A stretch of DNA of 64,000 nucleotides from positions 81,138-145,137 of the forward strand of contig NZ_NCQY01000020.1 in assembly GCF_002894645.1 (NCBI RefSeq), given 5' to 3'. The notes beneath the pieces are model-generated. The model ran no database searches, was not told the origin of the DNA, and was given only the letters and a program-made list of their open reading frames with translations. This DNA comes from Salinibacter altiplanensis. GTDB lineage: Bacteria; Bacteroidota; Rhodothermia; Rhodothermales; Salinibacteraceae. Positions within the stretch are counted from its first letter, which is position 1. Every line of letters begins with the position of its first letter. Both the position numbers and the translations under genes were made by a program. This document shows positions 4,330 through 47,245 of this stretch, in pieces.

Positions 4330-4530
4330 CAATGAAGATCCACTGAGGCGAAGTGCAGTGGCACACCTCCAGTTCGCGATCCCTATTCCCGACCCACCGC
4401 TGCGCATCGGCACGAACCGCTACAGGTTTTTTCAGACACGCACCGGGCCTTCTCCGCACGTTGAACCGGAGCGCCGGTGCACGCCGTAGCATCTCGGAGT
4501 CTCATCGGACCCGTGCCGTTGATCTCGATC

Positions 4531-7500
4531 ATGTCGTCGCCGTCCCGGCTCCCCTGTGCAGGGGGGGCGCGACGAGAGCGCGTGTATGTGGTGGCGATGG
4601 CGGTGCTCCTGGCCTGGGGGCTTCCCGGGCTCCTGCCGCTGGCCCGAGCGCAGGTGGTGCCGCTTCCCGATACGACCGCCCCCGACACGACCACTTCTGC
4701 CCCGACCCTGCTCCCGGATGGGCCGCCCTCCCCACTGGGAGACAGTGCGGCGGGGCCAGGGCGGATGAGCGGTGCTCGCGCATCTCAGGGCCAGCGTCTC
4801 ACAGCGTCGCCCCCGCCCCCCGATACAGGCGTCGTCGGTCGGTACCTGCCGGCACGGCGTGGGCGGTCGGTCCGCCTGTTTGAACGAACGTCTCCGTTTT
4901 TGGGGCCGCGTGCCCCGACGGCCGACGCGCAGTCGGTCACGCTGGACTCCACTCAGGCCCGCTATGTGGTGACGGACGATGCACGCCGCGGGCGGAGCGT
5001 GGGGATGGACGACGACGCATACCGGCGTGAACGCTACCGTGCCAACCTGGATAAAAACTGGCGCACCCTCGTCAAGCAGCGGCAGGCGGAAAACACAGAC
5101 GGAGGATTTGGGGTCAACATGGTGGTGCCGGGCGGCCAAGGAAGCACCTTCTCCACCGTCTTCGGCAAGCCCCAGGTGGATCTTCGGGTGAACGGCCAGG
5201 CCGACATCAATGCCGGATTTAAGTACCGGAAGAGCGACCAGCAGGTCAACGTCACGGGCGACGCCAGTCAGCTCAACCCCGACTTCAAGCAGGACCTGCG
5301 GCTCGGCATCACGGGCACGATCGGGGACAAGCTACAGATGAACGTCGACTGGGACACGCAGAGTCAGTTTGACTACCAGAACCAGGTCAAGCTCAACTAC
5401 ACCGGCTACGAAGACGAGATCCTACAGAGTGTAGAGGCGGGCAATGTGTCCATGCAGACGCCCTCGCAGCTTATCAATGGGGGGCAGAGCCTCTTCGGAA
5501 TCAAAAGCGAGTTCCAATTCGGCAACCTGAGCCTCACGACCATTGCGAGCCAGCAGGAGGGGCAGTCCAACAGCCTTAGCATCGAAGGGGGTGCGCAGGA
5601 GACGAAGTTTGATCTCACGCCCACGGACTACGACGAGAACCGCCACTTCTTCCTTGGCTACTACTTCCGCAACAATTGGAACCGGGCCCACGAGGACCCG
5701 ACGACGATCCGGACGTTCGAGGGGTTTGACGAGATTACCGAGGTGGAGGTATGGAAGATTACGCAGCAGGTCGGCAACCAAGAAAACACCCGGCAGGCGG
5801 TGGCCGTGGTGGACCTGGGAGAGAATCCGCGGCTGGTACGTGAGGCGGAGGGCTACAGGGAGACGGTGCTGCCCAGGCCGAACGTGGACCAGTACAACGA
5901 GGCCGACCTGGAGGCCCTCCGTGACGGAGAGCAGCGCGCCTCGTCGTACCTGAGTGACTCGGGCACCATGGAACGGTCCCTGGACACGCAACAGGACCTC
6001 CACGCGGGCGAGTTCAAGCGGCTCACACGTGGGCAGGACTATCGCCTCGACAGCCGTTTGGGCTTCCTGTCGCTTCGACAGCGGCTGCGGCCCGACGAGG
6101 CCCTGGCAGTGGCGTTTCGGTACCGGACGAACGATGGGGCCGTGCGTACGGTCGGCGACTTTACGCAGGGGGGCACCACCGGAGGCATCAACGCCGACCG
6201 CCTCGCGCTGAAGCTGCTCCGCCCCACCGACCCGGTCGCGCCGAGCCAGGAGGGGGGGAGCATCGACCCGGCCGCCTGGTACTTGCAGCTACGGAACGTG
6301 TACGACCTCTCGGGGCGGGACTTCAGTCCGGAGAATTTCGAGCTCGACATTGAGTACCAGGCCTCCGGGCAGGGCGCGCGCACGACGCTGCCGGACGTGG
6401 CGGGGCAGAGCACACTGCTTCGGGTGCTTGGGTTGGACCGGGTCGACCAGAACGGCGCCCCCAATCCGGACGACCAGTTCGACTTTCTTCCCCGGACGAT
6501 CAATGCGGACCGGGGGCTGATCTACTTCCCCTATCTCCAGCCGTTTGGGCGGCGCATCCTGGACGCTGCGGCCGAGAACGGGACCCGGACGGCGGGGGAG
6601 CCCTTCGCATTCACGAATTTGTACACCAAAAAGAAAGACAACGCCCGAAAAGAAGACACGCAGAAAGACGTCTATCACGTGCGGGGCTCGTACACCGGAG
6701 GGGCTCAGCAATTCTATGATCTGGAGGCCTTCACGGGGCTGGTCGAGGGATCGGTCGAGGTCACCTCGGGCGGGCAGACCCTGCAAGAGGGCGTCGACTA
6801 CCGGGTGGACTATCAGGGGGGGACGGTAAACATCACCAACGAGTCGTACCTGACCGCCGGGCGAGACATTGAAATCGACTATGAGCAAAACAGCCTCACC
6901 AACATCCAGAAGAAGACCCTGCTTGGGGCGCGGGCGGACTGGGCGATGCGGGACCAGTTTTCCCTCGGGGCCACCGTCATGCGGCTCAGCCAGCAGTCGC
7001 CCGTCGACAAGTTTCGCATCGGACAAGAGCCGATCCAGAACACCATCTGGGGCCTCAACGGCTCGATGGACCTGGAGCCGCAGTGGGTCACGGAGGCGGT
7101 CGACGCCCTGCCGCTCGTGCAGACGCGGACGGAGAGCCAGCTCTCGGTCTCCGGTGAATTTGCGCAGCTCCGCCCCGGACACACCACCACCGATGCCTAC
7201 GAGCGCACCGTGAGCCGGGTGGAAGACAGCGAGACCGACCGGTACGCGTCGGACGAGCGCAATGGGGTCTCCTACATCGACGACTTCGAGGGCTTTGAAA
7301 ATACATTTTCCCTCCGTCAACAGCCGGGCGCCTGGCAGGTGAGCGCGGCGCCCGACTCGACGGCCAACGCCCCGGGCCTCGATGGAGAGACCCCTGGCAC
7401 CTACGACGACGTTCGGCAGCGAACCCACTGGCGGGGCCGCCTCGGGTGGTACCGCCTCAACGAAAACATTCTGGAAGCGATTGGCACCGAGGAGGGGGGC

Positions 7501-10500
7501 GAGGCCACCGATCTCATCAATACCGAAGAGGTCTTCGTGGGCCGGGACACGCAGGGAGAGGCGAACCCCACCCTCCGGACGCTCGACCTTCACTTCAATC
7601 CCTGGCAGCGTGGGGCCTACAACTACACGGGGAATCTGGTGGACTTCTTTCGGGAGCCGCGGAAGGTGTGGGGCGGCATCACGCGCTCGCTCCCGGAGGG
7701 CTACACCGACTTTTCGGTGCAGAACGTTGAGTTCGTGGAGTTCATCGTGAAGGTGTACCCGGAGAACGGCGAGGTCACCGACGGGTCGCGCCTCTATGTT
7801 GACCTCGGGACGATCTCGGAGGATGTGGTCCCGAACCAGCGCATCGACATGGAGGACGGCCTCTCCCTCAACTTCAACGAAGGGGACCTGGGGACCCTCA
7901 GTCGCATTCCCAATGCCGAGCCAGGTGGGGGGATCGACCTGCGGGGCAGCCGGACCCAGGACCTGGGGCTCGACGGGTTGGTGTCCTACACCGACGGCAC
8001 CTACGACGAGCGCCTGCTTGAGCGAGCCTTCTATGCGGGCTTCGTCGAGCACGCGGACAGCCTGGGGGGGAGCATCGGGCAGCTTGGCCTGTCCGCCGAG
8101 CAGCGGCAGCGCCTGCGGGCGGAGATTGCACGCACCGCCGAGGACCCCTCGGCCGACGACTATCACTTCTACGAGAACGATCGGTTCTTCAACACGACGG
8201 AGTTCTTCCCGGACGGGGCCTCCGTGCAGGAGCGCCTGAGTTGGTATCAGGCGGGCCACGAGCTCAACGGCTTCGAGTCGCAGAACGCGCTGGCCGAGGA
8301 GGCGAGCGTGACGCGGGGCGTCTCCCGCTCCCCAGACCGTGAGGCCCTCGACGGGGTTGGGAGCCAGATCAACATCGACAACAACTACTTTCAGTACGCC
8401 GTCCCGCTCAGTGAACTCGACCGGCGTGCCGAGACCGATGGGGGGCCGACCGACTACGTGGTCAGCAAAGTGGGGGCGGAAGAGGACTGGTACAAGGTTC
8501 GCATTCCGGTACAGGCCTTTACGCGCCAGGTGGGCGCCATCGAGAACTTCGATGACATCAAGTCCATCCGCCTGTGGACGACCGGGCACAGAGCGCCCGT
8601 CACGATGCGGTTTGCGTCCCTGGAGCTGGTGGGCAGCCAGTGGCGCGCCTCGGAGCCGGTGGCCCAGCAGCCCGTGGAGGAGGACAGTACCGTCGATGCG
8701 GGGGCGGGGGAGCTGCGGGTGGCCAGCATCAACAACGAGGAGGACCTGCGCTACGAGCCGCCTGCGGGAGCGGTGGTGGGACAGAACCGCACGTCCCGCG
8801 GCGTGCAGCAGCAAAACCGCGAGCAGGCCCTCTTGCTGAATGTCGACCAGCTCGAGCCCGGGCGACAGCGGGGCGTCTTCAAGACGTTCGGGCAGGGGCT
8901 CGACCTGCTCAAGTATTCGAACCTGCGCATGTATACCCATCTGCACGGAACGTCGAGCAGCGCGCAGGTAAAAGACCGACTCCGCGAAAACCTGCGGCTG
9001 TTCGTGCGTCTGGGCTCCGGGGAGACCGGCGACTACTACGAGTACGAGCAGCCGATGCAGCCGGGCGACGTGCCGATGGACGGCGGGTCGCAGGCCCTGT
9101 GGCCGGAGGAGTTCGAGATGAACCTCGTCCTTGAGCGGCTCAACCGACTCAAGCTCCTCCGCGACCAGAGCGGGAGTCCGACGGACGAGTCGTTTTCAAG
9201 CAACGACGTAAACCTGGACATCGGCGACTTCGCGCCGCCGGAGACGGTGCTTCGGGTGCGGGGCACGCCGTCCCTGCAGAACGTACAGACGATCGTCGTC
9301 GGGGTGCGGCACGCGACGGATCCCAACGAGAACCCGCCGGTGCTGCAGGACTTCGAGGTCTGGCTGAATGAGCTGCGCGTGAGTGGGTTCGACGAGCAGA
9401 AGGGCTGGGCCGCCAACGCCAACGCGAGTCTCGACCTCGCGGACTTTGCGTCGGTGGAGGGCAGCCTCCAGCGCCGGACGGACGGATTTGGGGCCTTGTC
9501 CAGCACACTGAGCGAGCGGAAGCAGTCCGACAACACGAGCTGGAACCTGCGCGCCAACCTCAACCTCGACTCGTTCCTCCCCGAGGACCAGGGCTGGCGC
9601 ATGCCCGTCACCATGCAGGTCCAGTCGAACCGCACGACGCCTCGCTTCGACCCCAACCGGGGCGACGTGGAGGTCCAGAGCGTGGCACGGCAATTCGACG
9701 CCCTGCCCGACAGCGACCTGGATTCGTTGGGCGCCGACCGGTACGACGGAGACCTTTCCAGTGACCAAATTCGGCAACGGCTGAAAGACAGCGTGCGCAC
9801 GGCGGCCGAGACGCGCAGCCTACGCCGCACGATGACGGCCGATGTCTCGAAGCAAGGGTCCGACGCGTGGTGGCTCCGAAAGACCGTCGATGGCCTCTCG
9901 CTGAGCTTTTCCTACCTCGACCAGTCGCGACGCAACCCACAGCGCCGGATCAATGACCGGTGGAGTTGGACGGGCGACGTGCAGTACCAACTCGACTTTG
10001 GGCGGCCCCGGACCGTGAACCCTTTTGGCTTCTTGCCCGACGCGCCGGTGCTTGGCACGCTGGCAGGCCTCTCGTTCAACTATGTGCCCCGCTCGCTCTC
10101 GTTCTCGATGAACGCAGAGCGGGAGGCCCAGACGACTCGAAGTCGCCCCTCGGGGCTCCGTACCACGCAAGACCAACCCCTGCGGGTGGCCTTTCCCCTT
10201 CGGAAGCAGCAGCAGTTCGATCACCGTCGTACCTTTAGCCTCCAGTACGATCCTTTTGGCTTCCTGAGTCTCAGCTTCGACACCAACACACGCCAGAACT
10301 TCGACGACGCCGCCTCACGAAACGAAACGAATGTCATCATCAGCGGCGAACGCGTTCGGGATACGGTGCTTACCGACATTGGCATTCCCCGCGACAGCAC
10401 CGCGGACTTCTTCGACAATCTGGACGACTTTGGGCTGGCCGATCGGGACCTCACCGCCGACGATGAGGGAGACACGGTCTTCTTTGAGAACCGGCTGTTC

Positions 10501-12323
10501 CGGCGGTCGGAGCTCGACGTGTTTCGGGACCTGCTGGCCGGGCGGGTGCGTCCACGTACGAGCGACCATGAGCAGCGATTTGCGGCCACCCTGAGCATGG
10601 GATGGGCCGACCGGGCGTGGCTCAACTGGATCGACCTGCAGGACGTCTCCTACCAGTCCTCCTTCCGGTGGTCCAATGGACCAGAGGGGGGGCTGCAGGG
10701 GGCCAGTGTGCGAAACTCGCTCACCCTTCGTTCGGGCGCGACCCTGCGGCCCAACAGGATCTGGGAGCGGTTCGGGTTCTTCGAGCGGCTAAAGCAGGCG
10801 CAGCGCCAGTCCGGCCGGGACGACCGACGGGATGGCGGGCGGTCCGGTGACGACGGCGGAGACGACGGCGACGGCGAGGACGACGGTGGAGAAGACGAGG
10901 CATCGGGGGACGACGGACTCGGGTGGGAGGACGTCCCCCTCCCGAGTCCGAAGGGCATGCTGCGCGGGCTCGCCCTCATGGTGCTCGACATCAACGACTT
11001 CAGTGTTAACTACAACGGGGACTGGAGTGCCCGCTCCTCCAACGTGGGTCGGTTGAACTCGGATTCGACCGAGGTAGACGTGCACTACCGACTGCTTGAT
11101 GCGGTGCGCGGGGACGGGCCGTCCGTCGGCTACCGGCTCGGGCTCGAGCGCTCCATCGAGCCGGACGGGCGCGTGCTGGACTCGCGGTTTCAGGTGTCGG
11201 ACGCCCTTAGCAACACCCACCGCCTGGAGGGGCGCACGGCCCTGAGCCCGAGCTCGTCCTTTCAGATCGACCTGAGTTGGAATGTGGAGTGGCGCACGCA
11301 GACCGACCGGACCTTCCAGGCGGGCAGTGGCGAGACCGGGAGCGGGGCGGCGGAGGGGCCCTTCACGACCGAGAGTGGTGACAACTCGGCGTCGGTGTGG
11401 GGCTTTGGGTCCGTGGTGGCGCTGGTGGAAGAGCAGGCTCGTCGATCAGCGGGGGCCGGCAACGGATCGGGGGAGGCGCTCCCGGCCGACGAGGTGCCCC
11501 TCACCAACGCGTCGGTTGCGGATGACTTCAAAGCGGCCTACCTGACGGGGGGGGGAGCGTGGGGGCCCACGGGTTCGCTCCGTTTCCCGTGCCCGGGTGG
11601 ACCGTCCGCTATTCGGGACTGGCCGACTGGCCCCTGCTCGGCCGCATCGTGGAAAGTGCGTCTCTCCGGCACAGCTACAACGCGGAGTACCAGTCGAGCT
11701 ACGCCACCGACACGCGGGCCGGCGAAGAAGAGGAGGCCCCGAACGGGCAGACGTTTCTGAATCCGGCGTTCAAGATTGGATCGTCCCGCGTCAGTGAGCA
11801 GTTTCGGCCTCTTTTCGGCGTCAGCATCACGTGGCCCGGCAGTGTCGAGACGAGTGTCGAGTGGAACCAGCAGACGGAGACATTCCTGCGCACGGCCAAC
11901 CTGAAGGTGGAAGAGGTGCAGACAAACCAATTGTCCGGGAGCGTCTCCTATCAGAAACGGGGGATGCGCATTCCCGTGCTCGGCCTCGGGCGTCTCGAAA
12001 ATCAGATCCGGTTTTCGCTCACGGTCTCCCGGTCGGTCAACGACGAGCGAAGCTACAACCTGCGCGGAGCGCTCGCGGACGTTCGAAGCGCGGACGGGTC
12101 GGTCGACCCGGATCGGATAACCGACCCGACCAACGACTACGTTCAGGTGCGCAAGCAGACGACGCGCGTCCAGGTGACCCCTGAGCTCACCTACCGCCTC
12201 AGCGACCGGGTGACGGCGGACCTCCTGGTCGAGTACGAACGGTTCGATGGCGACAGCCGACAGCCCTCCTACACGCGGGTCAATGGGGGGTTCAACGTCA
12301 GCGTAAGCATCTCCCAAAACTAG
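4531..12323 (+). CDS. sprA: SprA-family cell-surface/translocon protein, interrupted by one frameshift
   Basis: SprA is the very large outer-membrane beta-barrel that forms the translocon of the type IX secretion/gliding system. ATG 4531 gives a signal peptide ([21 protein letters not shown], cut before QVVPLPD); the frame is also open to a GTG at 4477. Family hallmarks follow: [45 protein letters not shown], repeated barrel strands, and an acidic Asp/Gly/Glu loop near 10840-10920. The first frame runs to 11760 but loses similarity after a run of nine G at 11547-11555. The true C-terminus continues in another frame from about 11556 ([20 protein letters not shown] ... [10 protein letters not shown]) to 12323. 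One extra G would restore a single product of about 2597 residues, normal for SprA. The break is probably a sequencing or assembly error, although a genuine inactivation or slippage site is possible. Identification of the family is firm; whether the host has a full secretion system cannot be judged here. Confidence 0.9.
11547..11555 (+). other. G9 homopolymer tract at the sprA frameshift
   Basis: Nine consecutive G bases. Upstream coding is in one frame; the conserved SprA C-terminus downstream lies in the frame reached by adding one base. With ten G the junction reads [19 protein letters not shown]. Confidence 0.85.
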
Positions 12324-21973: not shown

Positions 21974-22978
21974 ATGCTTGTGCTTGGCATTGAGTCCTCG
22001 TGTGACGATACGGCCGCGGCCGTTTGGGAGGACGGGACGGTGCGGGCGAACGTGGTGTCTTCGCAGGCGGATCTTCACGAAGAGTACGGCGGTGTGGTGC
22101 CGGAGCTGGCCTCCCGGAACCACCAACGGCTCATCGTGCCTGTCGTGCAGCGGGCCCTCACGAAGGCCGAGGTCGACGTGGAGGGGCTCGACGCCGTTGC
22201 GGTGACCTACGGGCCGGGACTCCCCGGCTCTCTTCTCGTGGGACTCAGCTTTGCGAAGGCGTTTGCACGAGGGCTCGACGTCCCGTTGATCGGGGTGAAC
22301 CACCTGGAGGGGCACGTCTGCTCAGTCGACCTGGAGGGGCCTCGTCCGGGCCGCCCGTTTTTGTGTCTCGTCGTGTCTGGGGGGCACACCGAGCTCGTAC
22401 GCGTCGACGAAAACGCTCAGCACGAGGTGCTTGGGCGCACCCGCGACGATGCGGCCGGGGAGGCGTTTGACAAGGTAGCCCAGCTGTTCGGGCTCGGGTA
22501 TCCTGGGGGGCCCGACATCGACCGCCACGCGGAAACTGGAGATCCGGCCTTTCACGACTTCCCCCGGAGCCGGCTCGATGGCTTCGACTTTTCGTTCAGC
22601 GGCCTGAAGACCTCGGTTCTCTACTACCTTCGCGACCGGTCTGCCGCGGAGCGCAAGCGCCTGCTCGCCGATCACCTCGACGACCTGTGCGCCGCGGTGC
22701 AGGCCGCGGTGGTGGACGTGCTCGTCGATGCCATGCGACGGGCCGTCGAGGAGACCGGGGGCGAGCACGTGGCCGTCGTGGGAGGGGTGGCGGCCAATTC
22801 CTCGCTCCGGCGGCGAATGGGCGCCCTCGGGCGCGAGGCAGGCGTGGACGTATCGGTGCCCGCCCTGACGTACTGCATGGACAATGCCGCCATGATCGCT
22901 CAGGCGGGGGCGCGGCGTCTTGCGGCCGGCCACACGAGCCCAGCGGCGCTGGACGTGCACCCGAATCTTCAGTTGTGA
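21974..22978 (+). CDS. tsaD: tRNA N6-threonylcarbamoyladenosine transferase TsaD
   Basis: Catalytic subunit of the t6A37 tRNA modification complex; it transfers threonylcarbamoyl from the TsaC product onto A37 of ANN-decoding tRNAs. The 334-residue protein has the ASKHA N-terminus MLVLGIESSCDDTAAAVWED, the iron-binding NHLEGH (H110, H114), the signature VVSGGHTELVRV, GEAFDKVAQLFGLGYPGGP, and the late GGVAANSSLRRRM and YCMDNAAMIAQAG. Length and order are standard. TsaB and TsaE are not in the window. Confidence 0.97.
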   Translation: MLVLGIESSCDDTAAAVWEDGTVRANVVSSQADLHEEYGGVVPELASRNHQRLIVPVVQRALTKAEVDVEGLDAVAVTYGPGLPGSLLVGLSFAKAFARGLDVPLIGVNHLEGHVCSVDLEGPRPGRPFLCLVVSGGHTELVRVDENAQHEVLGRTRDDAAGEAFDKVAQLFGLGYPGGPDIDRHAETGDPAFHDFPRSRLDGFDFSFSGLKTSVLYYLRDRSAAERKRLLADHLDDLCAAVQAAVVDVLVDAMRRAVEETGGEHVAVVGGVAANSSLRRRMGALGREAGVDVSVPALTYCMDNAAMIAQAGARRLAAGHTSPAALDVHPNLQL

Positions 22979-24157: not shown

Positions 24158-25768
24158 TCAAAAGGAATAGCGCAGGCCAACCCGAATCTGGTTCCGGACG
24201 ATGTCTTCATCCACGACCGGGATGTCAATCGCTGCGGACTCACCGGGGGGCGTGACGCTTGAGTAGGGGGCAAACTGGTCTTCCGAGCGCTCCTGCATCC
24301 AGGCGGCGTTCACGGACAGATGCTCGCTTAGCGGCAGTCCGGCGCCCGCGGATAGAAAGAGGCGCGAACGGTCGGTTTCCTCCCCGTCAGCGAGGGTGAA
24401 ATCAAAACCGCGGGCGCCCGGCCGGTATGCGATTCCCCCCCGCAGGGAAAAGCCGTTTTCCGAACGATATTCGACGCCGCCCCGCCAGTTGACCACGTAG
24501 TCGTATTCTTCGAGATTCTCATTTGCCACGTCGAACGCCGTGGCGTCCGCATCGAGGCTCGTCTGTGACCAGTCGACGAACTCGACGTCGGCCGAAATGA
24601 GGAATGGAGCGCGCGTATAGCTCACGCCGGTGCTGAGACGCCACGGGGTCTGCAGGCGGTAGTCAAACGCCCCACGGGCAGCGTCCTCCCCGGAATCGTC
24701 GCCGTAGGTCAGTGTCCCGTTTCCAAACTCCGTGCGGATGAACGCGTCTGTAAACGTCTCGTCGATGGAATACCAGGTGGGCGTCTCTACCGTAAAGCCG
24801 ACCCGAAGGTGCTCGACCGTGTTGGCCGAGAGGCCCAGGCGAAGGTTGAATCCGGTGAGGTCGGAGGTGAATCGCTCTCGGAAGAGCATGCTCTGGAAGT
24901 CTTCCAGCAGCCCGTCGCCCGCAACGACCGAGTACGCATCCTCCCCGTCGAGGTCTATTTCCGTCAGCTCGTTTTCGAACGCATACGTGCCGTATGAGAG
25001 GCTGGCACTTCCCCCAACCATCACGTTCGGGGCCACTTCGAGGGCACCGGCGAAGCTCAGTTCGTTCATGGAGCCGCCCCGCGTTACCGTGCCGTCCTGT
25101 CGAATGCTGCGGCCCGGCGCAACAGCCTGGAGAAATGGGTACTGGTCGTCCTGAAATCGAGAGTCGAAAAACTCGGTGGCGCCTGCCTGAAAGGCGACGA
25201 ACGGGACGATGGGAATGACGTCGATGGTGGTGGTGCCGTCTTCCTCCGAAATCTCGAATTCGTCTCCGGACGGCAAAAACGTATCCGTAATCGAGCTGAC
25301 AGAGTTTTCTCCGGTGTAGGTCAGCTCTCGGTCGAACGCAGACGTCCGGTTGAAGCCGAGTGCGAAGACGAGCGATCCCTGTTCTGTGTCGACGTTGTAC
25401 ACGCCTGTCAGGTGGCCGAGCCGCGCGGTCACATCGTCCCCTGTCTCTTGGGAGGCCGGTCCGTCGGAAAAGATCTGGTAGGTGGATTCATCTCGACTGA
25501 GCAGTCCGCTGAGGCTCCCACTGACCTCCGACGCCTGGTAGTACCCGAGGCCGGCCGGGTTGGTGTACAGGGCACTCGGGTCGGCCCATCCGCCCACCCC
25601 GCCGGCGCCGCTCATGCCGCTTGCTCGGGGGCCCACCGCCGAGAATCGGGTGGAAAAGCGGTACACATCGTCCGCTGTTTGCCCGGCGGCGATGGACGGA
25701 AGAAAAGCGATGACGAGGCCAACCAGAAGAAGTGATCGGGACCGGGGGCAAACGGGCCGTACACGCAT
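24158..25768 (-). CDS. OmpP1/FadL/TodX family outer-membrane protein
   Basis: A 536-residue barrel of the FadL family, which takes up hydrophobic compounds across the outer membrane. A signal peptide (SLLLVGLVIAFLPSIAAGQT) precedes the typical N-terminal hatch region TRFSAVGPRASGMSGAGGVGGWADPSALYTNPAGLGYY, the hallmark of Bacteroidota members. Long beta-strand stretches follow, ending in the aromatic terminus IRVGLRYSF expected for outer-membrane insertion. Extracellular loops are acidic. Convergent with mltG, stop codons 37 bases apart. The substrate is unknown. Confidence 0.93.
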   Translation of the reverse strand: MRVRPVCPRSRSLLLVGLVIAFLPSIAAGQTADDVYRFSTRFSAVGPRASGMSGAGGVGGWADPSALYTNPAGLGYYQASEVSGSLSGLLSRDESTYQIFSDGPASQETGDDVTARLGHLTGVYNVDTEQGSLVFALGFNRTSAFDRELTYTGENSVSSITDTFLPSGDEFEISEEDGTTTIDVIPIVPFVAFQAGATEFFDSRFQDDQYPFLQAVAPGRSIRQDGTVTRGGSMNELSFAGALEVAPNVMVGGSASLSYGTYAFENELTEIDLDGEDAYSVVAGDGLLEDFQSMLFRERFTSDLTGFNLRLGLSANTVEHLRVGFTVETPTWYSIDETFTDAFIRTEFGNGTLTYGDDSGEDAARGAFDYRLQTPWRLSTGVSYTRAPFLISADVEFVDWSQTSLDADATAFDVANENLEEYDYVVNWRGGVEYRSENGFSLRGGIAYRPGARGFDFTLADGEETDRSRLFLSAGAGLPLSEHLSVNAAWMQERSEDQFAPYSSVTPPGESAAIDIPVVDEDIVRNQIRVGLRYSF

Positions 25769-25845
25769 AGGATGGGTGTTGTCGGACGGAGTGGAGAGGC
25801 GTGATGCAGGGCGAGAAGTGGACTCCCCTTCAGGGGCGAGGCAGA

Positions 25846-27261
25846 CTACGAATCGTCCTCGTCGTTCCGGCTGCTGCGATCCGACCCTTCACGATTCGAT
25901 CCTCCGCGGTCCGACCGAGAAGACCGTGTGCCCCGGGAGGCCGAAGAGGAGCGATCCGAGCGCGACGACTCGGCCCGAGAGGATGACCGCGACGACCGAG
26001 AGGTTGATTGTGAGCGGGAGCGGTTCGGGGAGCGAGAGCGCTCAAACGAGAAGGGATCGGTTCGATCAGAGAAGCGCACGGTCTCGGACTGGGAGTGTCT
26101 CCAGTTCAGGGTGCGGCGGGACGCTCGCTGCTTCCGCCGGAGGCGTTTTCGCTGTTGCTCGTAGCGGCCGGTGTCGAGGCGATTCGGGGTGTAGCGATTC
26201 AGAAGAAGCCGGTCTCCCGTTTCCCTGGAGCGGGACCGGTCGCCGCGGCTCGACCGAGAGCGCTCGTTCCCCGACCGTTCGCCCGACCGTGCCCTCCGAC
26301 CGTCCGAGCCCGAAGACCGTCGTGCCTGCCGGCTTGCGTCCCGGCCCGTAGAACGATCGGACCGCTGGGCTTCCGTGTCGTCGGCCCGGCGGCTCCGTCG
26401 AGGGGTGCGCGAACGCGACCGGTTCTGCGAGGAGCGCCTTCGAGCCGTGCGGTCGCGGTCCACGGCACGGCGCCCAATGCGTCCACGCGACGATCGAGGC
26501 CGGTTGCTGCGTTCCAGGCGAGCGCGCCGGGTCCGCTCGGCACGTGATGACCGTGAGCGGCGTGCCTCCTCGCCCCGGTCGGCCGAGCGGCGACCGATGC
26601 GGCCGTCTGACTCATCACGGCGGGTGGCCACCGCGCGTCTGTCGTTCCGTGACCGTGCATCACGCCGGTCGGCGCCCGAGACGCCCCGTCCGACCGTCCC
26701 TCCCCGTGGGCGGTAGTCTCGTTTCCCTGTCACATCTTCCGACGTGCCCACATAATACGGACTGCCGTAGCCCAGCCCGTAGGCGGGGCCGACGGAGGAG
26801 ACGGTGCCGTATCGGTATCCGTAAAAGGGGCGCCCGAACGGGTCGAGGTAGAAGGATCGATAGTACCGGGGCCGTACGGAAACGTACGGCGTTCCGAAGC
26901 GGAAAGAGAACGAAAACTGCGAGCCGTACGGGCGGTGGTAGAATGGCTCGTGGAAGAAGGGGTCGTAGTGCGACCAGCTATGCGTCACACCCCGGTCGTA
27001 GAAGTGGTAGTTGTACTCACGCGTCGTGGTCTCGTGCGTCTCGCCCCGCCGACGGGCCTCCCGGCGATACTCGCGCCGGTACTCATCGGCGTATTGCTGC
27101 GCACTCGCCGGTTTCTGCTCGGCGCGGGCGTGCTGGTTCGACGTGTCCGCCGTCTCCAGCTGCGTGTAGCAGCCCGTGAGGCCGAGGGCCGACACGGCGA
27201 GAACGAGCAGCAGTCCTGCGGAGCGCGATGAGGAGCGGGGAAACCAGTCGGCGTGAATCAT
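25846..27261 (-). CDS. Arg/Ser-rich (SR-like) lipoprotein
   Basis: A 471-residue predicted lipoprotein. Start ATG 27261 gives a signal peptide with lipobox LGLTGC (C31). Residues about 60-80 are Arg/Glu-rich, about 80-175 are Tyr/Phe/Gly-rich (YHFYDRGVTHSWSHYDPFF, RPYGSQFSFSFRFGTPY), and from about 180 to the end the protein is a low-complexity Arg/Ser/Asp region with many RSRS, SSRS and RRS units. This makes it extremely basic, unlike the acidic proteins around it. The complementary strand is also open, but the lipobox and aromatic segment make this strand the coding one. I know no bacterial family with this exact layout. An anionic surface-binding or matrix role is speculation. Confidence 0.72.
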   Translation of the reverse strand: MIHADWFPRSSSRSAGLLLVLAVSALGLTGCYTQLETADTSNQHARAEQKPASAQQYADEYRREYRREARRRGETHETTTREYNYHFYDRGVTHSWSHYDPFFHEPFYHRPYGSQFSFSFRFGTPYVSVRPRYYRSFYLDPFGRPFYGYRYGTVSSVGPAYGLGYGSPYYVGTSEDVTGKRDYRPRGGTVGRGVSGADRRDARSRNDRRAVATRRDESDGRIGRRSADRGEEARRSRSSRAERTRRARLERSNRPRSSRGRIGRRAVDRDRTARRRSSQNRSRSRTPRRSRRADDTEAQRSDRSTGRDASRQARRSSGSDGRRARSGERSGNERSRSSRGDRSRSRETGDRLLLNRYTPNRLDTGRYEQQRKRLRRKQRASRRTLNWRHSQSETVRFSDRTDPFSFERSRSPNRSRSQSTSRSSRSSSRAESSRSDRSSSASRGTRSSRSDRGGSNREGSDRSSRNDEDDS

Positions 27262-39411: not shown

Positions 39412-41379
39412 TCAGGGCATGTCGTGGGTCGTCACGAACGCCTCGGCGGCGTAGAATTCCGGGAGGCCCAGGCCGTTCAGGGCGTCGGCGGTGTCGCGGT
39501 TGCGGTCGCGGGCTCGCTCCCAGAACTCGCGGTCGTCGTAGGCCCCGGGAAACATCGCCCGATCCTTCTGGCTCTCGTGCTTGAAGATGGCCTCCACCTT
39601 GCGGTCGAGGTCGGCTTTGGAGAGGGGCACGAACACGTCGGCCTCGTGGAGCGGCCACTCCTGCCACGCCCCTCGATACAGCCACACGAGGGGCCGAGGA
39701 CGGGGCATTTCGCTTGTGTCGGGGGCCTCTCCATTGGCCCCAGCTGGCACGCTGGTCTCGTCGGTGTACTGTCGGAGGGCCTGCTTGATGGCCTTGTAGC
39801 ACATCCGGTGCGTACCGTGGGGGTCCGAGAGGTCCCCGGCCACGAAGATGTGTGTGGGCTCGACCGCTGTCAGCAGGTCGTGCACCACCTCCACGTCCGC
39901 CTCCGTAATCGGATCCTTGCGCACGCGCCCCGTCTTGTAGAAGGGCATGTCCAGAAACTCGGCGTGATCGGCGTCCAGTCCCATGACCTCGATCGCCGCG
40001 ATCGCCTCGCCGTACCGGATGTGGGCCTTGAGGGTTTGTACCTCCGAGGGGTCTACCTCGGCCGGGTTCCGCCTGGCAAAAAAGGCCTCGATTTCGTCGC
40101 GTCGGCCGCGGAAGCCCGACAGGTCCTCTTCGCTCATGTTGAGCGTGTCGCTGCTGAGGCCGATGAAGCGGAGGTAGCGGCGCACGTCGGCGTCGAAGAC
40201 GGCCACCGACCCGTTTGTCATATACGAGACGGTGACGTCGTTGCCGTTCGACACGAGCGCATCGAACATGCCCCCCATCGAAATCACGTCGTCGTCCGGG
40301 TGGGGACTGAAGATGAGGACGCGCTCGTCGGAGGGCAGGTGCTCGCGGTACGTGATGCGCTGGCGCAGGTCCTCGAAGACCTCCCGGGCCAGATCGTCGA
40401 CGTCATCGTAGCGGTGCACCAGGCTGTGAAGCTGGTTCTGGTAGTAGTCGGACGCCTCGAGGCGAGGGATTGGGGTGTCGAGCGTCTCGGACAGCCAGAT
40501 GACGGCGCGCTTGGCCTTCTGGTCGGTCCAGTCGACCTCGCGGACGCGCCACGGCATCTTTTCGCGCGTGAGTTCGCCGGCGGCCGCCCGGTCGAGGTAA
40601 AAGGTGGCGTTGGGGTGGTCCTGCAGGTAGCTGGCCGTGACTTCCCGGGAGGGGGGCTCCTCTACGGCCCGCTGCACGATGGGGGCCTTGTGCTCGCCCG
40701 TCGCCATGAGCACAATCTCGTCGCAGTCGAGAATGGTGCCCACCCCCATCGTGATGGCTTCCTGGGGCACGTTGGCCTCCCCAAAAAAGTCGCTCGCAGC
40801 GTCCTTGCGCGTGATCTCGTCGAGGATCACCTGGCGGGTGCGCGTCTGCCGCCCGGAGCCCGGCTCGTTGAAGCCCACGTGGCCGGAGCGCCCGATGCCG
40901 AGCAGCATGAGGTCGATCCCGCCGGCCTTCTCGATCTCGTGCTCGTACTCCACACAGTGGCGCTCCACGTCGTCCGAGGGAATGTCGCCGCGAGGGATGT
41001 GGATCTGATCCCTCGGAATATTGACGTGGTTGAAGAGGTTCTCGTCCATGAACCGGTGGTAGCTCTGCAGGCTATTCGGGTCCATGGGGTAGTACTCGTC
41101 GAGGTTGAACGTCACCACGTTCGAGAGGTCGAGCCCGTCCTCTCGGTGCATCCGGACGAGCTCCTGATACACGCCAATGGGGGTGGACCCGGTCGGCAGC
41201 CCCAGCACTGCCTGCTGCTCGACGGCCTGTCGTTCCTCAATGAGGGTGGCAATGCGCCGGGCCACGCGGTGGGCCATCTCGCCTGGGTCATCGAAGATGA
41301 GGGTCTCGACCCGCTCGTGTTGCGTGTCGGGCCGAGTGGCATGATCGGAGGCGTTGACCGGGGGGGAGTACGAGTCCAT
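39412..41379 (-). CDS. nagB: Glucosamine-6-phosphate deaminase fused to a PIG-L/LmbE-type deacetylase domain
   Basis: A 655-residue two-domain enzyme. Residues about 25-290 are Nag[53 protein letters not shown] and [16 protein letters not shown], converting glucosamine 6-phosphate to fructose 6-phosphate and ammonia. After a linker of about 70 residues comes a PIG-L/LmbE domain with the zinc motif [14 protein letters not shown] and the distal His in [13 protein letters not shown], suggesting N-deacetylation of a sugar. The fusion is known in Bacteroidota. The frame is open past the chosen ATG 41379, but upstream residues are not family-like. Divergent from the GMC gene. Confidence 0.94.
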
Positions 41380-41564
41380 GGCTCGGGGGCGGCGGTGATT
41401 TGTAGCGGAGGAACGCGCAGGGGGGCGTGGCGCTCGGGCCATGCATGATAGAAGACGGGACCCTCTGTAACAATATCGAGGGAAGTTCGGGACCGCTTCC
41501 AGATTGCACGGCCCGCGGAACCGGTTCCAATTTTCGACATGTCGGCCCAGGCCGAGACATTTGG

Positions 41565-41596
41565 TTGCGTCTGAATCCGCCTCGTAATTACGTTTC
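41565..41596 (+). promoter_or_regulatory. Putative promoter of the GMC dehydrogenase operon
   Basis: TTG at 41565-41567, 21 bases, then TACGTTTC at 41589-41596, one mismatch from TAnnTTTG and similar to the sprA -7 element. It is 37 bases before the GMC start. Confidence 0.4.
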
Positions 41597-41632
41597 AGGG
41601 GCGTTCGTCCCTCTTCACGTCTCCTTGCCTGC

Positions 41633-43366
41633 ATGCCCTTCATTCAAGAGACCCCCGACACGTACGATGTCTGCATTGTCGGCTCCGGAGCGGGAGGCAG
41701 CATGGCCGCAAAGGTGTTGGCGGAGGCTGGGGCCGACGTGGTGGTCCTGGAGGCCGGCCCCGAGTGGAGCGTCGAGGAGGACGGAGCGATGTTTGACTGG
41801 AACTACTCCTCGCCCCGCCGGGGCGCCTCGACGACGGCCCGTCCCTTCGGGGAAAAAGACGCCTGCCTCGGCGGGTGGGACATTGAGGGGGAGCCGTACA
41901 CGACCGCCGAGGGCACCAACTGGAACTGGTTCCGGGCCCGGATGCTGGGCGGGCGCACCCATCACTGGGGGCGCATCTCCCTTCGCTTCGGGCCGGACGA
42001 CTTCAACGGGCGGAGCGTGGACGGCCACGGGGAGGACTGGCCCATCGACTACTCAGACCTGAAGCCGTACTACGACCGGGTCGACCGGCTGATCGGCCTC
42101 TTCGGGTCGGAGGAGGGATTCTACAACGCCCCCGACGGGATTTTTATGGAGCCGCCCGAGCCCCGCTGCTACGAGAAGTTCATCAAACAGGGCGCGGAGG
42201 ACGTTGGCGTTCCGGTGATCCCGTCCCGCCTCTCAATCCTGACCGAGCCGCACAACGGCCGCGCTCCCTGCCACTACTGTGCGCAGTGCAACCGGGGCTG
42301 CACCACCCACTCGAACTTCTCGGCGCCGCCGGTGCTGCTGGACCCGGCCCTGCAGACCGGCAACGTGACCCTGGTCACCCACGCGATGGCCCGGGAGGTG
42401 ACGACCGACCAGGAGGGGCAGGCCACCGGCGTCTCTTACGTCGACACCCGGAGCCGCCGGGAGCAGAAGGTAAAGGCCGACGTGGTGGTCCTGGCCGCCA
42501 GCGCGTGTGAGTCGGCCCGCCTCCTCCTGAACTCTACCTCCCGCCAGCACCCGAACGGCCTGGCCAACTCCAGCGGCGCGGTTGGGCGCTACCTGATGGA
42601 CTCGACGGGGGCGACCGTCATGGGCGTGGCCCCGCAGCTGATGGACCAGCCGGCCCACAACTGCGACGGGGTCGGGGGCATGCACGCCTACATCCCGTGG
42701 TGGGCCCACGACCAGGCCCTCGACTTCCCGCGGGGCTACCACTTTGAGCTGTGGGGCGGGCGCGGCATGCCGGGCTACGGCTTTGGGAGCGGCATTCAAA
42801 ACCTCAACGGCCTGTTTCCCGGCGACGAGGAGACGAAGAAGAAAGGCGGGGGTGGCTACGGCCAGCAGCTGAAGAACGACTACCGTCGCTTCTACGGCGC
42901 CACGGTGGGAATGTCCGGGCGGGGCGAGTCGATTGCCCGCCGGGACAACTACTGCGAGATCGACCCGGACACGCGCGACGAGTACGGCATTCCGGTCCTT
43001 CGCTTTCATCATTCTTGGGGGGAGGAGGAGTACCGGCAGGTCAAGCACATGCAGGAAAAGGGGCGCGAGATTCTGCGGTCGGCCGGGGCCGAGCCGCTCG
43101 GGTCGGTGCCGAGCAAAGAGGACGGGTACGGCATCACCATGCCCGGGGAGATCATCCACGAGTCCGGCGTGACCCGCATGGGCACCGATCCGGAGACCTC
43201 AGTGCTCAACGCGCAGTGTCAGGCCCACGACGTGGACAACCTGTTCGTGGCCGACGCCGGGCCGTTCACGTCGATGCCGCACAAGAACCCGACCTGGACC
43301 ATCCTCGCCCTCTCGATGCGCACCTCGGAGTACATCATCGACCAGCGTACGAAGGGCAACATCTGA
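41633..43366 (+). CDS. GMC-family oxidoreductase, gluconate-dehydrogenase-type FAD subunit
   Basis: A 577-residue flavoprotein. FAD-binding start YDVCIVGSGAGGSMAAKVLA and VVVLEAGPEW; a loop WNWFRARMLGGRTHHWGRIS typical of GMC enzymes; a Cys-rich segment CHYCAQCNRGCTTHSNF; and the C-terminal active-site regions HESGVTRMGTD and MPHKNPTWTILALSMR with the His-Asn pair. It has no signal peptide and is followed 98 bases on by a subunit-3 gene with a Tat signal, which in this family carries the FAD subunit across the membrane. Likely oxidises a sugar or glycoside in the periplasm, perhaps to the 3-keto form. Confidence 0.93.
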   Translation: MPFIQETPDTYDVCIVGSGAGGSMAAKVLAEAGADVVVLEAGPEWSVEEDGAMFDWNYSSPRRGASTTARPFGEKDACLGGWDIEGEPYTTAEGTNWNWFRARMLGGRTHHWGRISLRFGPDDFNGRSVDGHGEDWPIDYSDLKPYYDRVDRLIGLFGSEEGFYNAPDGIFMEPPEPRCYEKFIKQGAEDVGVPVIPSRLSILTEPHNGRAPCHYCAQCNRGCTTHSNFSAPPVLLDPALQTGNVTLVTHAMAREVTTDQEGQATGVSYVDTRSRREQKVKADVVVLAASACESARLLLNSTSRQHPNGLANSSGAVGRYLMDSTGATVMGVAPQLMDQPAHNCDGVGGMHAYIPWWAHDQALDFPRGYHFELWGGRGMPGYGFGSGIQNLNGLFPGDEETKKKGGGGYGQQLKNDYRRFYGATVGMSGRGESIARRDNYCEIDPDTRDEYGIPVLRFHHSWGEEEYRQVKHMQEKGREILRSAGAEPLGSVPSKEDGYGITMPGEIIHESGVTRMGTDPETSVLNAQCQAHDVDNLFVADAGPFTSMPHKNPTWTILALSMRTSEYIIDQRTKGNI

Positions 43367-44402: not shown

Positions 44403-45749
44403 TCAGCGGAAGGTCGCCTCGATGGCGTTCGTGAAGTGAACCGCCGCGTCGCTATAGATGTTGACCTGATAGGGCCGAAACACATCGCCCGAGATGATTT
44501 GGGAGGCGTCGCTCCAGCTCTCTGTCGTGCGCAGGCGCTTCAGGACGTCCCGGTAGGCGTCCCGGTCGCCGTCGAAGAGGGCCTCTACGTACACCTCGCG
44601 CTTCGGCGTGTGCGACGGCCCGAACACCTCCTGTTCCAGGGCCGACAGGTCGTCATCGGGGTCGGAGACGGGCGATCGTCCGTCCGACGACGAGGATGGT
44701 ACGTCGGTGGGAGATGATGTGTCGGGCTCCACGGGTTTGTCCGAGGGACTCTGTTGAAACTGGGCCCAGAGGGGCTGGGCATCCTCGTCGGACGCGTCCG
44801 TCTCGGTACGCCGTTGGCCGGCGTGTTGCTCGAACTGCTTCCACATCGGGGTGGCCTCGGGGGCGGCCTCCGACGAAGCGTTCGGGGACGGATCGGAGGC
44901 CCCGTCGGCCGACGTGTGGAGGTCGGGGTCCAGGGGGGCGTCCGGCACGTCGCGAGGCTCGGTGGTGTGGTTGGGGGAGACATCCCCGGTAGAGGCGGTG
45001 TCGAGGAGGCGTTGAAGCGTGTCGGGGGATACAGTGTTGGCGTCCTCGGTCCGTTCGTGGGTGGTGAGGCGCTCCACGAGGGGGGCGGCGTTCTTTTCCT
45101 CAAAGAACGTGCGCAGGAGAGAGAGCGGGACTTGCGTCCGCCCGGTGGCGCAACGGGCCGTCTCGAAGAGGGGATCGAGGAGGTCGAGCCAGCGGCCCGC
45201 CTCGAAGTCCGCCGTTATGCGCTCGTCGACGCGCCGGAGGACGTGCTCAAAGGCGTCCGGGGAGAAGGCGTCCCGGTCCTGCTTCTCGGCGGAGGCCTGC
45301 ACGGCGTTCCGAAGGTAGGCGTACGGCCCGAAGAAGCGCATGCGCCACTGCACCTGCGGCACCGGCACCGCCCCGGCCGCGTCCTCGAAGACAAAGGCGC
45401 TCAGCGTGGGGACCGGGCGCACGAGGTAGTTCGTCGTGCGGCGGGCGGCGGTGCGAAGCGTGTCGGTCCACTGGCCGCGCGGCACCTGCAGGTGCTGTTC
45501 CGCCGCGTCGAGGAACGCGTGGGTGGCGTCTTCCATCTCCGGATGGTCGTAGTCCACCCAGTCGGTCCGGGCCCGGCGCAGCTGGCGCGTTTCGCGTCGG
45601 TGGTGGTGCCGAAGAAGATGGGACAGGTAGTGTCGGAGAGGGGCCGGCATTGCGTCCGCCGTCCAGTCCGTTTTCGTGTAGGCCCGGTCGGCGGGAAAGG
45701 CGTCGAGCAGGCGCTCCGAGAGGGCGTCGGCGAGCGAACGCGTGGACAT
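44403..45749 (-). CDS. Hypothetical protein with Asp/Ser/Pro-rich middle
   Basis: A 448-residue protein I do not recognise. Residues 1-220 are mainly helical with His/Arg-rich stretches (APLRHYLSHLLRHHHRRETR, QWRMRFFGPYAYLRNAVQ); 220-370 are a disordered Asp/Ser/Pro-rich region with two short similar motifs, TPMWKQFEQHAG and QPLWAQFQQSPS; and 370-448 form a compact end (EREVYVEALFDGDRDAYRDV-like, VFRPYQVNIYSDAAVHFTNAI). No signal or membrane span. ATG 45749 was chosen; an ATG 11 codons upstream (45782) also works. Divergent from the membrane protein at 45983. Confidence 0.7.
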   Translation of the reverse strand: MSTRSLADALSERLLDAFPADRAYTKTDWTADAMPAPLRHYLSHLLRHHHRRETRQLRRARTDWVDYDHPEMEDATHAFLDAAEQHLQVPRGQWTDTLRTAARRTTNYLVRPVPTLSAFVFEDAAGAVPVPQVQWRMRFFGPYAYLRNAVQASAEKQDRDAFSPDAFEHVLRRVDERITADFEAGRWLDLLDPLFETARCATGRTQVPLSLLRTFFEEKNAAPLVERLTTHERTEDANTVSPDTLQRLLDTASTGDVSPNHTTEPRDVPDAPLDPDLHTSADGASDPSPNASSEAAPEATPMWKQFEQHAGQRRTETDASDEDAQPLWAQFQQSPSDKPVEPDTSSPTDVPSSSSDGRSPVSDPDDDLSALEQEVFGPSHTPKREVYVEALFDGDRDAYRDVLKRLRTTESWSDASQIISGDVFRPYQVNIYSDAAVHFTNAIEATFR

Positions 45750-45982
45750 GTGGGGCGCGGCGGACAGTGCGGAGCAGTGCATTGAACCGTGGTGTCTACG
45801 TGCAGGTTGGAGAAGAGGTTTTCGGAAGGGAGACGGCGCCGCATTTCTCTTTTCGGGAGACAGTGTGTTCGGTGCGGCCAGGGGGCATTTGGTCTGATTT
45901 TCCCAGGGGCGCATGGACACGGAGGCCTGCTTGGCAATACGTTCTCTCAACCATTGGCTCCCCAAAACCCTCTCCCGCTGTC

Positions 45983-47245
45983 GTGCCGTCTCGTTCCCTG
46001 CCGGCCCCGATTCGTCACGTCCGTGGGGGAGCCTCCCGGCTCGCCTACGGGCTGCTCCTGGGGGTGCTGAGTGCGGCGGCCCTGCTGCTGGCCGCTGGGG
46101 CCGACCCGGGGACGCGGGCCGCGGGCCTTCGGTTGTGGGCGCTCGCGGGAGCGGGGATGTTTGCCGTAGCGCCCCCGAACGTGCTGTTCCCAGATCCGAA
46201 CGTCTCGATGCTGCAGCGGCTGAACCGGACGCCCGCGGGGCTCCTGCGCTACCAGGCGCGCCGGTTGGGGCCGCTCGTGCTCCTGGCGGTGGGGCCGGCG
46301 GTCCTCGTGGCGTACGGCGATCCCGGGGGGCCCCTTCAGTACCTCGGGGCAAAGACCGTGGCCCTGGGGCAGGCGCTCCTCCTGATTGGGGGCACGGCGC
46401 TGGACAGCTTCGTGCACTTCGCCACCCTCGGGGCCCGGTCGCAGGCCTGGCACGAGGGCCGGGCCGGGCAGTGGTATGCCCGAGCCGTGGAGGAGCAGGG
46501 ACAGGGGATTAGTCTCCCGCGGGGGCTCGTGCCGGCCCTCTTCGCCACCACCCGGTGTTTCGTGGTGGGCGTCGGCGTCGTCATCGCCACCGCAGCGGCC
46601 GCCACAAACGGACTAACCGTATGGGCGTGGGTGCCCGGCCTTCTCCTCGTGGGCTGGGCCGGCGTCCGCCTGCGACAGTCGCGCCCTGCCTACGACCGGC
46701 ACTTCTACCACACCACGGCCTTTTACGCGGAAGTGATGGGCGGGGGCACTGTGGCGGCCACCGATCGTGCGCCGGTGCCCTACGACGCGCTCTACTGGGT
46801 GCCTTCACGGTGGCGTCCGGCCGTCTGGGCGAGCGTGCGACAGCTCGACCGCCGTTTGCCCCTTGGCCGCCTCGTGGCAGTGGCCCACCTGGGCCTGTGG
46901 CTCTTCTGCGTCCGGGGGGTGTCCCCCGCCTTCATTACGACATACCTGACACTGATTTTCACTGGGCAGGTGGCGGCCTGCGCGGTGCTCGGGACTCCTT
47001 CGGCAGCCCCCCAGCCGTTCCAGCGGGCTCTGCAGTCGGTGGGCGACTGGATTGGGACCCGCACGTTCGTCAACCTGCGCTGGTTTGGGCCGCACATGGG
47101 GAGCCTCGCGCTCGTGGTGCTATTCGGCACCACCTACGGCTGGGCCTGGGTGGCCACCTGGGCGGCCGTTCACGTCGGGCTGTCGGGGGCAGCGGCCACG
47201 GCCGTGACCCTCGCAACGGAAGGACGGATGCGCCCCGCGGCGTAG
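45983..47245 (+). CDS. Multi-span membrane protein paired with an ABC ATPase
   Basis: A 420-residue hydrophobic protein with about eight membrane spans (for example LLLGVLSAAALLLAAGAD, GPLVLLAVGPAVLVAYG, FVVGVGVVIATAAAAT, MGSLALVVLFGTTYGWAWV). No ATG is available in frame near the N-terminus; GTG 45983 starts a short basic lead (VPSRSLPAPIRHVRGGASR) before the first span. No family recognised. The ABC ATPase 73 bases downstream suggests it is the permease-like partner of an exporter, an inference from position only. Confidence 0.72.
   Translation: MPSRSLPAPIRHVRGGASRLAYGLLLGVLSAAALLLAAGADPGTRAAGLRLWALAGAGMFAVAPPNVLFPDPNVSMLQRLNRTPAGLLRYQARRLGPLVLLAVGPAVLVAYGDPGGPLQYLGAKTVALGQALLLIGGTALDSFVHFATLGARSQAWHEGRAGQWYARAVEEQGQGISLPRGLVPALFATTRCFVVGVGVVIATAAAATNGLTVWAWVPGLLLVGWAGVRLRQSRPAYDRHFYHTTAFYAEVMGGGTVAATDRAPVPYDALYWVPSRWRPAVWASVRQLDRRLPLGRLVAVAHLGLWLFCVRGVSPAFITTYLTLIFTGQVAACAVLGTPSAAPQPFQRALQSVGDWIGTRTFVNLRWFGPHMGSLALVVLFGTTYGWAWVATWAAVHVGLSGAAATAVTLATEGRMRPAA

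Follow-up and report, generated by a model that had tools for sequence, protein, structure and literature searches.

We propose, at a probability of about 0.5, that LIP, a lipoprotein of Salinibacter altiplanensis with a long tail rich in arginine and serine, resides in the outer membrane and forms a functional unit with the FadL-family barrel encoded downstream. This two-protein outer-membrane unit is the best-supported statement that emerges from our analysis, and the adjoining FadL-family gene, on which the preliminary description is silent, is the main clue to LIP. The window, i.e., the whole stretch of 64,000 nucleotides analysed (contig NZ_NCQY01000020.1, positions 81,138 to 145,137 of the forward strand), comes from a genome of 3.59 Mb.

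The gene and its predicted product

The features of the pair are the following (positions in the window).

24158..25768, minus strand: FadL-family (Toluene_X) outer-membrane beta-barrel, the partner gene, 536 aa (PF03349)
25769..25845, minus strand: gap of 77 bp between the LIP stop and the FadL start (simple consensus terminator scan)
25846..27261, minus strand: coding sequence of the Arg/Ser-tailed lipoprotein (LIP), 471 aa, ATG at 27261, stop included (orthologues, dN/dS)
27169..27261, minus strand: type II signal peptide, residues 1-31, with lipobox LTGC (Cys31; LTGC-YTQL) and a predicted helix at 9-35 (sequence)
27157..27171, minus strand: CYTQL motif at the lipidation site, residues 31-35 (conservation in 38 aligned proteins)
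26998..27105, minus strand: charged predicted helix, residues 53-88 (SAQQYADEYRREYRRE...) (AlphaFold2 model)
26710..26979, minus strand: Tyr/Phe-rich segment, residues about 95-184 (...YDPFFHEPFYH...FSFSFRFG...) (alignments A1, A2 and A5)
26686..26709, minus strand: junction motif PRGGTVGR, residues 185-192 (comparison within the order)
25849..26709, minus strand: Arg/Ser(/Asp) low-complexity tail, residues 185-471, 287 aa (composition; predicted disordered)
26116..26211, minus strand: tail island at residues 351-382, RLLLNRYTP... and then a predicted helix (364-382; alignment, AlphaFold2)

The preliminary description had seen here a lipobox protein in which a Tyr/Phe-rich segment precedes an Arg/Ser/Asp low-complexity tail, and this is the layout of the 471-aa open reading frame. 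The signal peptide, the lipobox and the conserved Cys identify LIP as a lipoprotein at the sequence level, and the lipobox Cys is also present in the distant relatives L233-L235; we infer that the protein carries a lipid and is anchored in the outer membrane. The junction motif recurs in many relatives of the order as PR with GR, GQ or GG close by. The orthologue from G013 was included in alignments A1, A2 and A4, and A5 was built without L142.

The AlphaFold2 model of LIP has a pLDDT of 46 and gave no fold, with most of the tail below 45 and hence predicted to be disordered; the model was built on a shallow alignment of 38 sequences, so the low values may partly reflect too few sequences. Two parts scored higher, the charged helix at residues 53-88 (up to 86 per ten residues) and the island helix at 364-382 (75-80). 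The island is shared by LIP of the window and the three congeners nearest to it.

Three other coding regions of the window can be recorded here as separate observations. The plus strand at 4477-11757, about 12 kb from the LIP-FadL pair, encodes a protein of 2427 aa in which two stretches match SprA_N (PF14349), the family of the type 9 secretion translocon. A single open reading frame at 39415-41643 (minus strand) combines glucosamine-6-phosphate isomerase-like and PIG-L deacetylase domains, and a coding-like 649-aa frame at 44406-46352 (minus strand) has no Pfam match at E 1e-5.

Coding frame and selection

Coding statistics favouring another frame had been named at the outset as an outcome that would speak against the protein; such statistics do not decide the matter here. 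The GC content by codon position (0.65/0.72/0.73) does not single out any frame in the tail. Substitutions do support the annotated frame: the dN/dS of the tail is 0.24, 0.32 and 0.24 against the orthologues of G015, G014 and G011, respectively, and third-position changes are 2.1 to 2.7 times as many as first-position changes in three congeners. The other five frames of the tail contain 1 to 9 stops each, with the exception of one reverse frame, which is open in two of four species. We accepted the annotated frame because of the dN/dS values and the stops in the other frames, with codon-position GC left undecided, and the same two lines of evidence rule out a misread-frame artefact. For the remainder of the protein, dN/dS is 0.16-0.24 in the aromatic segment and 0.41-0.42 in the first 95 residues, and the FadL neighbour gave 0.13 (one congener compared). 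LIP is a real gene under purifying selection.

Composition and charge of the tail

The 287-aa tail contains 87 Arg, 59 Ser, 24 Asp, 15 Glu and 2 Lys residues (30% Arg, 21% Ser, 14% Asp plus Glu). RS and SR dipeptides number 52, compared with 35.7 +/- 4.6 (maximum, 53) in 2000 composition-preserving shuffles of the tail, and RSRS occurs six times in the protein, counting overlaps. A tail of about 290 residues rich in RSRS had been described before, and both the length and the excess over the shuffled expectation bear this out. So does the contrast noted then between a basic protein and its acidic neighbors: the pI of LIP is 11.5 versus a median of 5.16 for 36 coding-like frames of at least 150 aa in the window, of which 6 exceed pI 8. 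This set was chosen roughly by codon-position GC; it omits the LIP gene itself and tsaD and includes at least one probable nongene, 22322-22960 (minus strand), opposite tsaD.

Among the 38 aligned LIPs, the last 150 residues are always net positive and Arg always outnumbers Lys, from 33% to 69% GC, including the loci of 33-34% GC. Arg content increases with GC (r = 0.59 across the 38 proteins), so composition bias contributes to the tail. The length and sequence of the tail vary strongly among relatives, and in some distant ones (L234, L236) abundant Pro or Gly takes the place of Ser.

Median Asp plus Glu content of the tail is 14.7% in the genus of the window (n = 12), 8.0% in the rest of the family (n = 7), 0.7% in the rest of the order (n = 12) and 6.7% outside the order (n = 7). 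Relatives of the order beyond this family have net-positive tails almost without acidic residues. The basic tail is thus not peculiar to the genus of the window, and our reading of the sequences is that this halophilic genus may have partly neutralised a basic tail. As a separate observation, the difference between about 15% acidic residues in the genus and a median below 1% in the rest of the order could indicate how far a disordered protein is adapted to salt.

Distribution of the family

A search with the whole protein matched 19 of 27 genomes of the family and 12 of 13 of the genus. At E 0.01, a profile of 25 N-terminal regions matched 166 of the 244 genomes searched in the class, and at E 0.001 it matched 105 of 392 genomes sampled across the phylum; with more distant members added, the profile found matches in 158 of 392 genomes of an equal-sized phylum sample. 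In a collection of named genomes, an alignment used as the query recovered 18 relatives, among them Salinivenus iranica, S. lutea, Longimonas halophila and a Melioribacteraceae genome, and the single N-terminal region of the window protein recovered none in that collection. The distant relatives L233-L235 have a lipobox, a Tyr/Phe/Gly-rich segment and a tail in which Arg, Ser or Gly occurs, and each of them adjoins a FadL gene. Absence of orthologues had been put forward as a possible refutation; relatives throughout the family, class and phylum samples show otherwise and also rule out an oddity of one genus. Some relatives in Bacteroidia are annotated as "vitellogenin II precursor."

Four draft contigs (L076, L077, L142 and L157) end within or beside the LIP gene. 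Perhaps the repetitive tail breaks the assembly at such places.

Pairing with the FadL gene

The two genes lie on the same strand, and a simple consensus scan found no terminator-like site in the 77-bp gap. We examined 98 loci selected for LIP or FadL matches, with distances taken between stop-to-stop frames. Of the 82 genomes with a LIP HMM match, 72 have a same-strand FadL gene no more than 3.5 kb downstream (35 of 43 in the order and 37 of 39 elsewhere). G058, G059, G060 and G096, four of these 72, had been selected through FadL and the remainder through LIP. The gap between frames is below 170 bases in 64 of the 72 paired genomes, three of these short gaps being measured from a second small lipoprotein located between LIP and FadL. 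The ten unpaired genomes include four contig ends (G406, G079, G039 and G082) and G055, where a wrong locus with a weak match had been examined and LIP and FadL are in fact together on contig C68. True separations, with contig remaining, are found in G005, G006, G023, G027 and G347; in the first three a FadL orthologue is present elsewhere in the genome.

The genes typically follow one another within the order as ProRS (divergent), LIP, FadL and MltG/TsaD (convergent). At 28 tested loci outside the order, ProRS, MltG and TsaD were never found, whereas FadL was present in 25. LIP is thus paired with one FadL group in most of the genomes covered, including those that lack the other neighbors of the window.

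Twelve genomes of the order have a FadL orthologue and no match to the LIP profile. The region upstream of FadL was examined in 11 of them, leaving out G102, in which FadL begins 8 bases into the contig. We found five complete LIPs and three R/S-rich frames cut by the contig end; two further genomes have less than 450 bases upstream, and in one (G023) there is nothing there. The LIP of G023 was located beside ProRS by means of a CYT DNA pattern, which matches 88 of 114 order genomes and, since the reversed control also matches many, was used for locating candidates only. In G070, which has no profile match for either protein, a LIP was found between FadL and ProRS. The prediction that LIP stands upstream of FadL in profile-negative genomes of the order held.

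The 12 genomes of the 98-locus count that have no LIP HMM match can be broken down in the same way. A LIP-like lipoprotein is present by motif in G091, G057, G097 and G070, and an R/S-rich frame cut by the contig end in G069, G071 and G044. The LIP profile match of G085 and G100 is on a different contig, G035 and G036 have less than 450 bases ahead of FadL, and G072 yielded no LIP in the class-wide profile search either.

Additional lipoproteins occur at some of these loci. In two congeners, an extra Arg/Ser-rich lipoprotein (GCYTKL, 449 aa) is encoded just upstream of LIP, on the side of ProRS (L058:10285-11634, minus strand; L060:6889-8238, plus strand), and the tail of the L058 copy is net neutral. 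Genomes outside the order encode the second small lipoprotein, GCYT(I/V), between LIP and FadL (L139:8682-9203, L145:6293-6805, L150:8629-9153 and L163:4981-5592), with a tail rich in Ser, Asn or Arg.

The partner barrel

The partner passes the PF03349 model (40.5 bits; cut-off, 29.7), and its AlphaFold2 model is well folded (pLDDT 88.5). The best Foldseek matches of this model were the FadL homologue 3dwo (E 3e-17) and the BamG chains 9hiv_F and 9n2d_B, about equal, with a TM of about 0.5 by query length; it also matches the transporters FadL, TodX and TbuX. By sequence, there was no match in the PDB at E 0.1. The partner remains below the cut-offs of the BamG model NF053685 (40.1 bits; cut-off, 250) and of the PorV_fam model NF033709 (37.1 bits; cut-off, 90), and seven further partners scored at most 64 and 51 bits, respectively, both under the cut-off.

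The best BamG-like gene of the genome is a different one, G000:C21:9033-10274, which at 232.4 bits also falls slightly short of the cut-off. When 49 FadL-family proteins were placed in one tree, 38 partners, 6 BamG-like proteins (of which only that of G024 exceeds the family cut-off) and 5 members of a third paralogue formed three separate groups, the branch of the partners having a support of 99/98; the program cautioned that BamG and the third group are joined through long branches. The partners in the tree include two FadLs that do not adjoin LIP, L204 (G023) and L213 (G005). The better BamG-like gene elsewhere and the separation in the tree rule out that the partner is BamG and the pair a BAM component.

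The putatively lipidated N-terminus and the side of the membrane

In alignment A4, whose 38 members were partly chosen by the lipobox-CYT pattern, C, Y and T of CYTQL are present in 38/38 proteins, Q in 37/38 and L in 33/38. An invariant CYT beside the lipid is probably unusual for a lipoprotein. The distant relatives L233-L235 have CSTSQ, CSVNR and CATTY instead, which rules out that CYTQL is invariant across the phylum. The CYT shared by LIP and the extra CYT lipoproteins would be a candidate barrel-docking motif; duplication would explain it too.

In the surface lipoproteins BamH-K, two or more of the six residues that follow the Cys are acidic (PMC12578637, partial text), and the export signal of Bacteroidota has been described as K-(D/E)2 or Q-A-(D/E)2 (PMC5080379, partial text). 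None of the 38 aligned LIPs has two acidic residues in these six positions; 36 have none and 2, the window protein included, have one. Since the surface-export signature is absent, we take periplasm-facing as the default for LIP. The signature rule was derived in other Bacteroidota, so its absence is not proof, but the earlier idea of a tail outside the membrane finds no backing in any of the 38 proteins.

Possible roles of the pair

We propose that the lipidated N-terminus (CYTQL) of LIP would dock on the FadL-family barrel, by analogy with BamH on BamG. More speculatively, the flexible chain of the aromatic and Arg/Ser-rich parts might act as a sticky tether of a multivalent kind; probably lying on the periplasmic side, it could bind anionic polymers of the envelope (peptidoglycan, head groups of lipid A or sulfonolipids) or else itself through Arg-Tyr/Phe contacts. 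Such a tether may keep the barrel in place or gather barrels into clusters. Two points stand against an electrostatic tether: molar salt weakens simple electrostatic binding, and the tail in the genus of the window has much Asp and Glu. Arg-rich chains can, however, phase-separate again at high salt (PMC9705477, partial text), and on this ground a condensate-like coat could work even in saturated brine. It is nevertheless a long shot that the Bacteroidota have in this pair, beside BamG and PorV, a further FadL-platform machine that has gone unrecognised, with the Tyr/Phe- and Arg-rich LIP chain coating the outer membrane around the barrel in this way, as a counterpart in the bacterial envelope of phase-separating SR/RGG proteins.

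The similarity of the partner to FadL, TodX and TbuX and its membership in PF03349 would also fit a transporter of hydrophobic compounds with LIP as its accessory, the Tyr/Phe segment, a regular part of LIP, receiving or buffering the substrate of the barrel on the periplasmic side. We consider this rather unlikely, since the regular neighbors in the order are ProRS, MltG and TsaD instead of catabolic genes, and the long basic tail would have no obvious role. The same barrel and the same logic of a conserved lipidated N-terminus (PMC12611786 and PMC12578637, partial texts) could instead point to a second FadL-platform complex resembling BamGH, with LIP in the place of BamH and a function in folding or retaining outer-membrane proteins; the model of the partner does fit the BamG structures about as well as FadL. 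Its score of 40 against 250 bits, the separate BamG-like gene (232 bits) in the same genome, the lack in LIP of the BamH-K surface signature and of a folded canopy domain in its model make this explanation improbable.

LIP might also act apart from the barrel and be a tether between outer membrane and peptidoglycan in its own right, replacing Lpp-type links, the FadL neighborhood being mere co-regulation. The lipobox, the missing surface signature and the 287 residues of predicted disorder would suit such a tether, as would the three genomes that keep LIP with the FadL orthologue elsewhere, but the pairing persists where the other neighbors of the window are gone and the Lpp/OprI model NF040598 gives only 13.1 bits (cut-off, 43), so we hold it to be quite unlikely as well. 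Far less credible is a purely compositional origin of the tail, as a functionless, drifting extension driven by GC or a misread frame. The large differences in tail length and sequence, the uninformative codon-position GC and the Arg-GC correlation of 0.59 can all be cited for it; against it are the purifying selection on the tail (dN/dS 0.24-0.32), the islands conserved among close congeners and the net-positive charge in 38/38 proteins across 33% to 69% GC. We retain the unit of lipoprotein and barrel as the most likely reading.

Relation to known systems and implications

LIP and the relatives scanned gave no significant match in Pfam, NCBIfam and the PDB. For LIP itself, no Pfam family was found at E 0.1 (RRM included) and no relative in the PDB by sequence; a profile match to 2y35 (E 0.027) was set aside as a likely low-complexity match. 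A literature search, with most subscription journals outside its scope, found nothing on the family. The earlier impression that no bacterial family of this kind had been described agrees with these searches. LIP is a new family, and the arrangement of a FadL-type barrel with a lipoprotein is of a kind already known.

FadL-like barrels also act as platforms in the type 9 secretion system (PorV and PorQ), and not only as transporters. We know of no FadL, TodX or TbuX transporter, with which the partner shares the fold and the PF03349 family, that is encoded together with a disordered basic lipoprotein. PorV is likewise described as a FadL-like barrel serving as a platform (PMC12578637, partial text), but the partner of LIP scores 37 bits against the PorV_fam cut-off of 90. 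In the closest parallel on paper, BamG-BamH, a FadL-family barrel is similarly combined with a lipoprotein conserved at the lipidated Cys (PMC12611786 and PMC12578637, partial texts), and the lipidated N-terminus of BamH packs against the FadL-like BamG (PMC12611786, partial text). Unlike BamG, the partner does not reach the BamG cut-off, and its genome has a BamG-like gene at a different locus; unlike BamH, which was compared by description only, LIP lacks the surface signature and a predicted folded domain. With eukaryotic SR proteins LIP shares a disordered, low-complexity tail rich in RS and SR, an analogy of composition only; it differs from them in having no RRM, in its lipobox export signal and in the position of the tail after a Tyr/Phe segment.

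One half of the pair has been without a family model, and the barrel has been known only as a generic FadL. FadL-like BamG was recently shown to be the platform of a large machine, and the LIP pair adds another conserved combination of barrel and lipoprotein. The LIP tails provide a natural series of Arg/Ser-rich disordered chains whose acidic content differs strongly between the genus of the window and the rest of the order. Because the pair is kept widely in a large phylum, even without the neighbors seen in the window, it should serve a basic function of the envelope.
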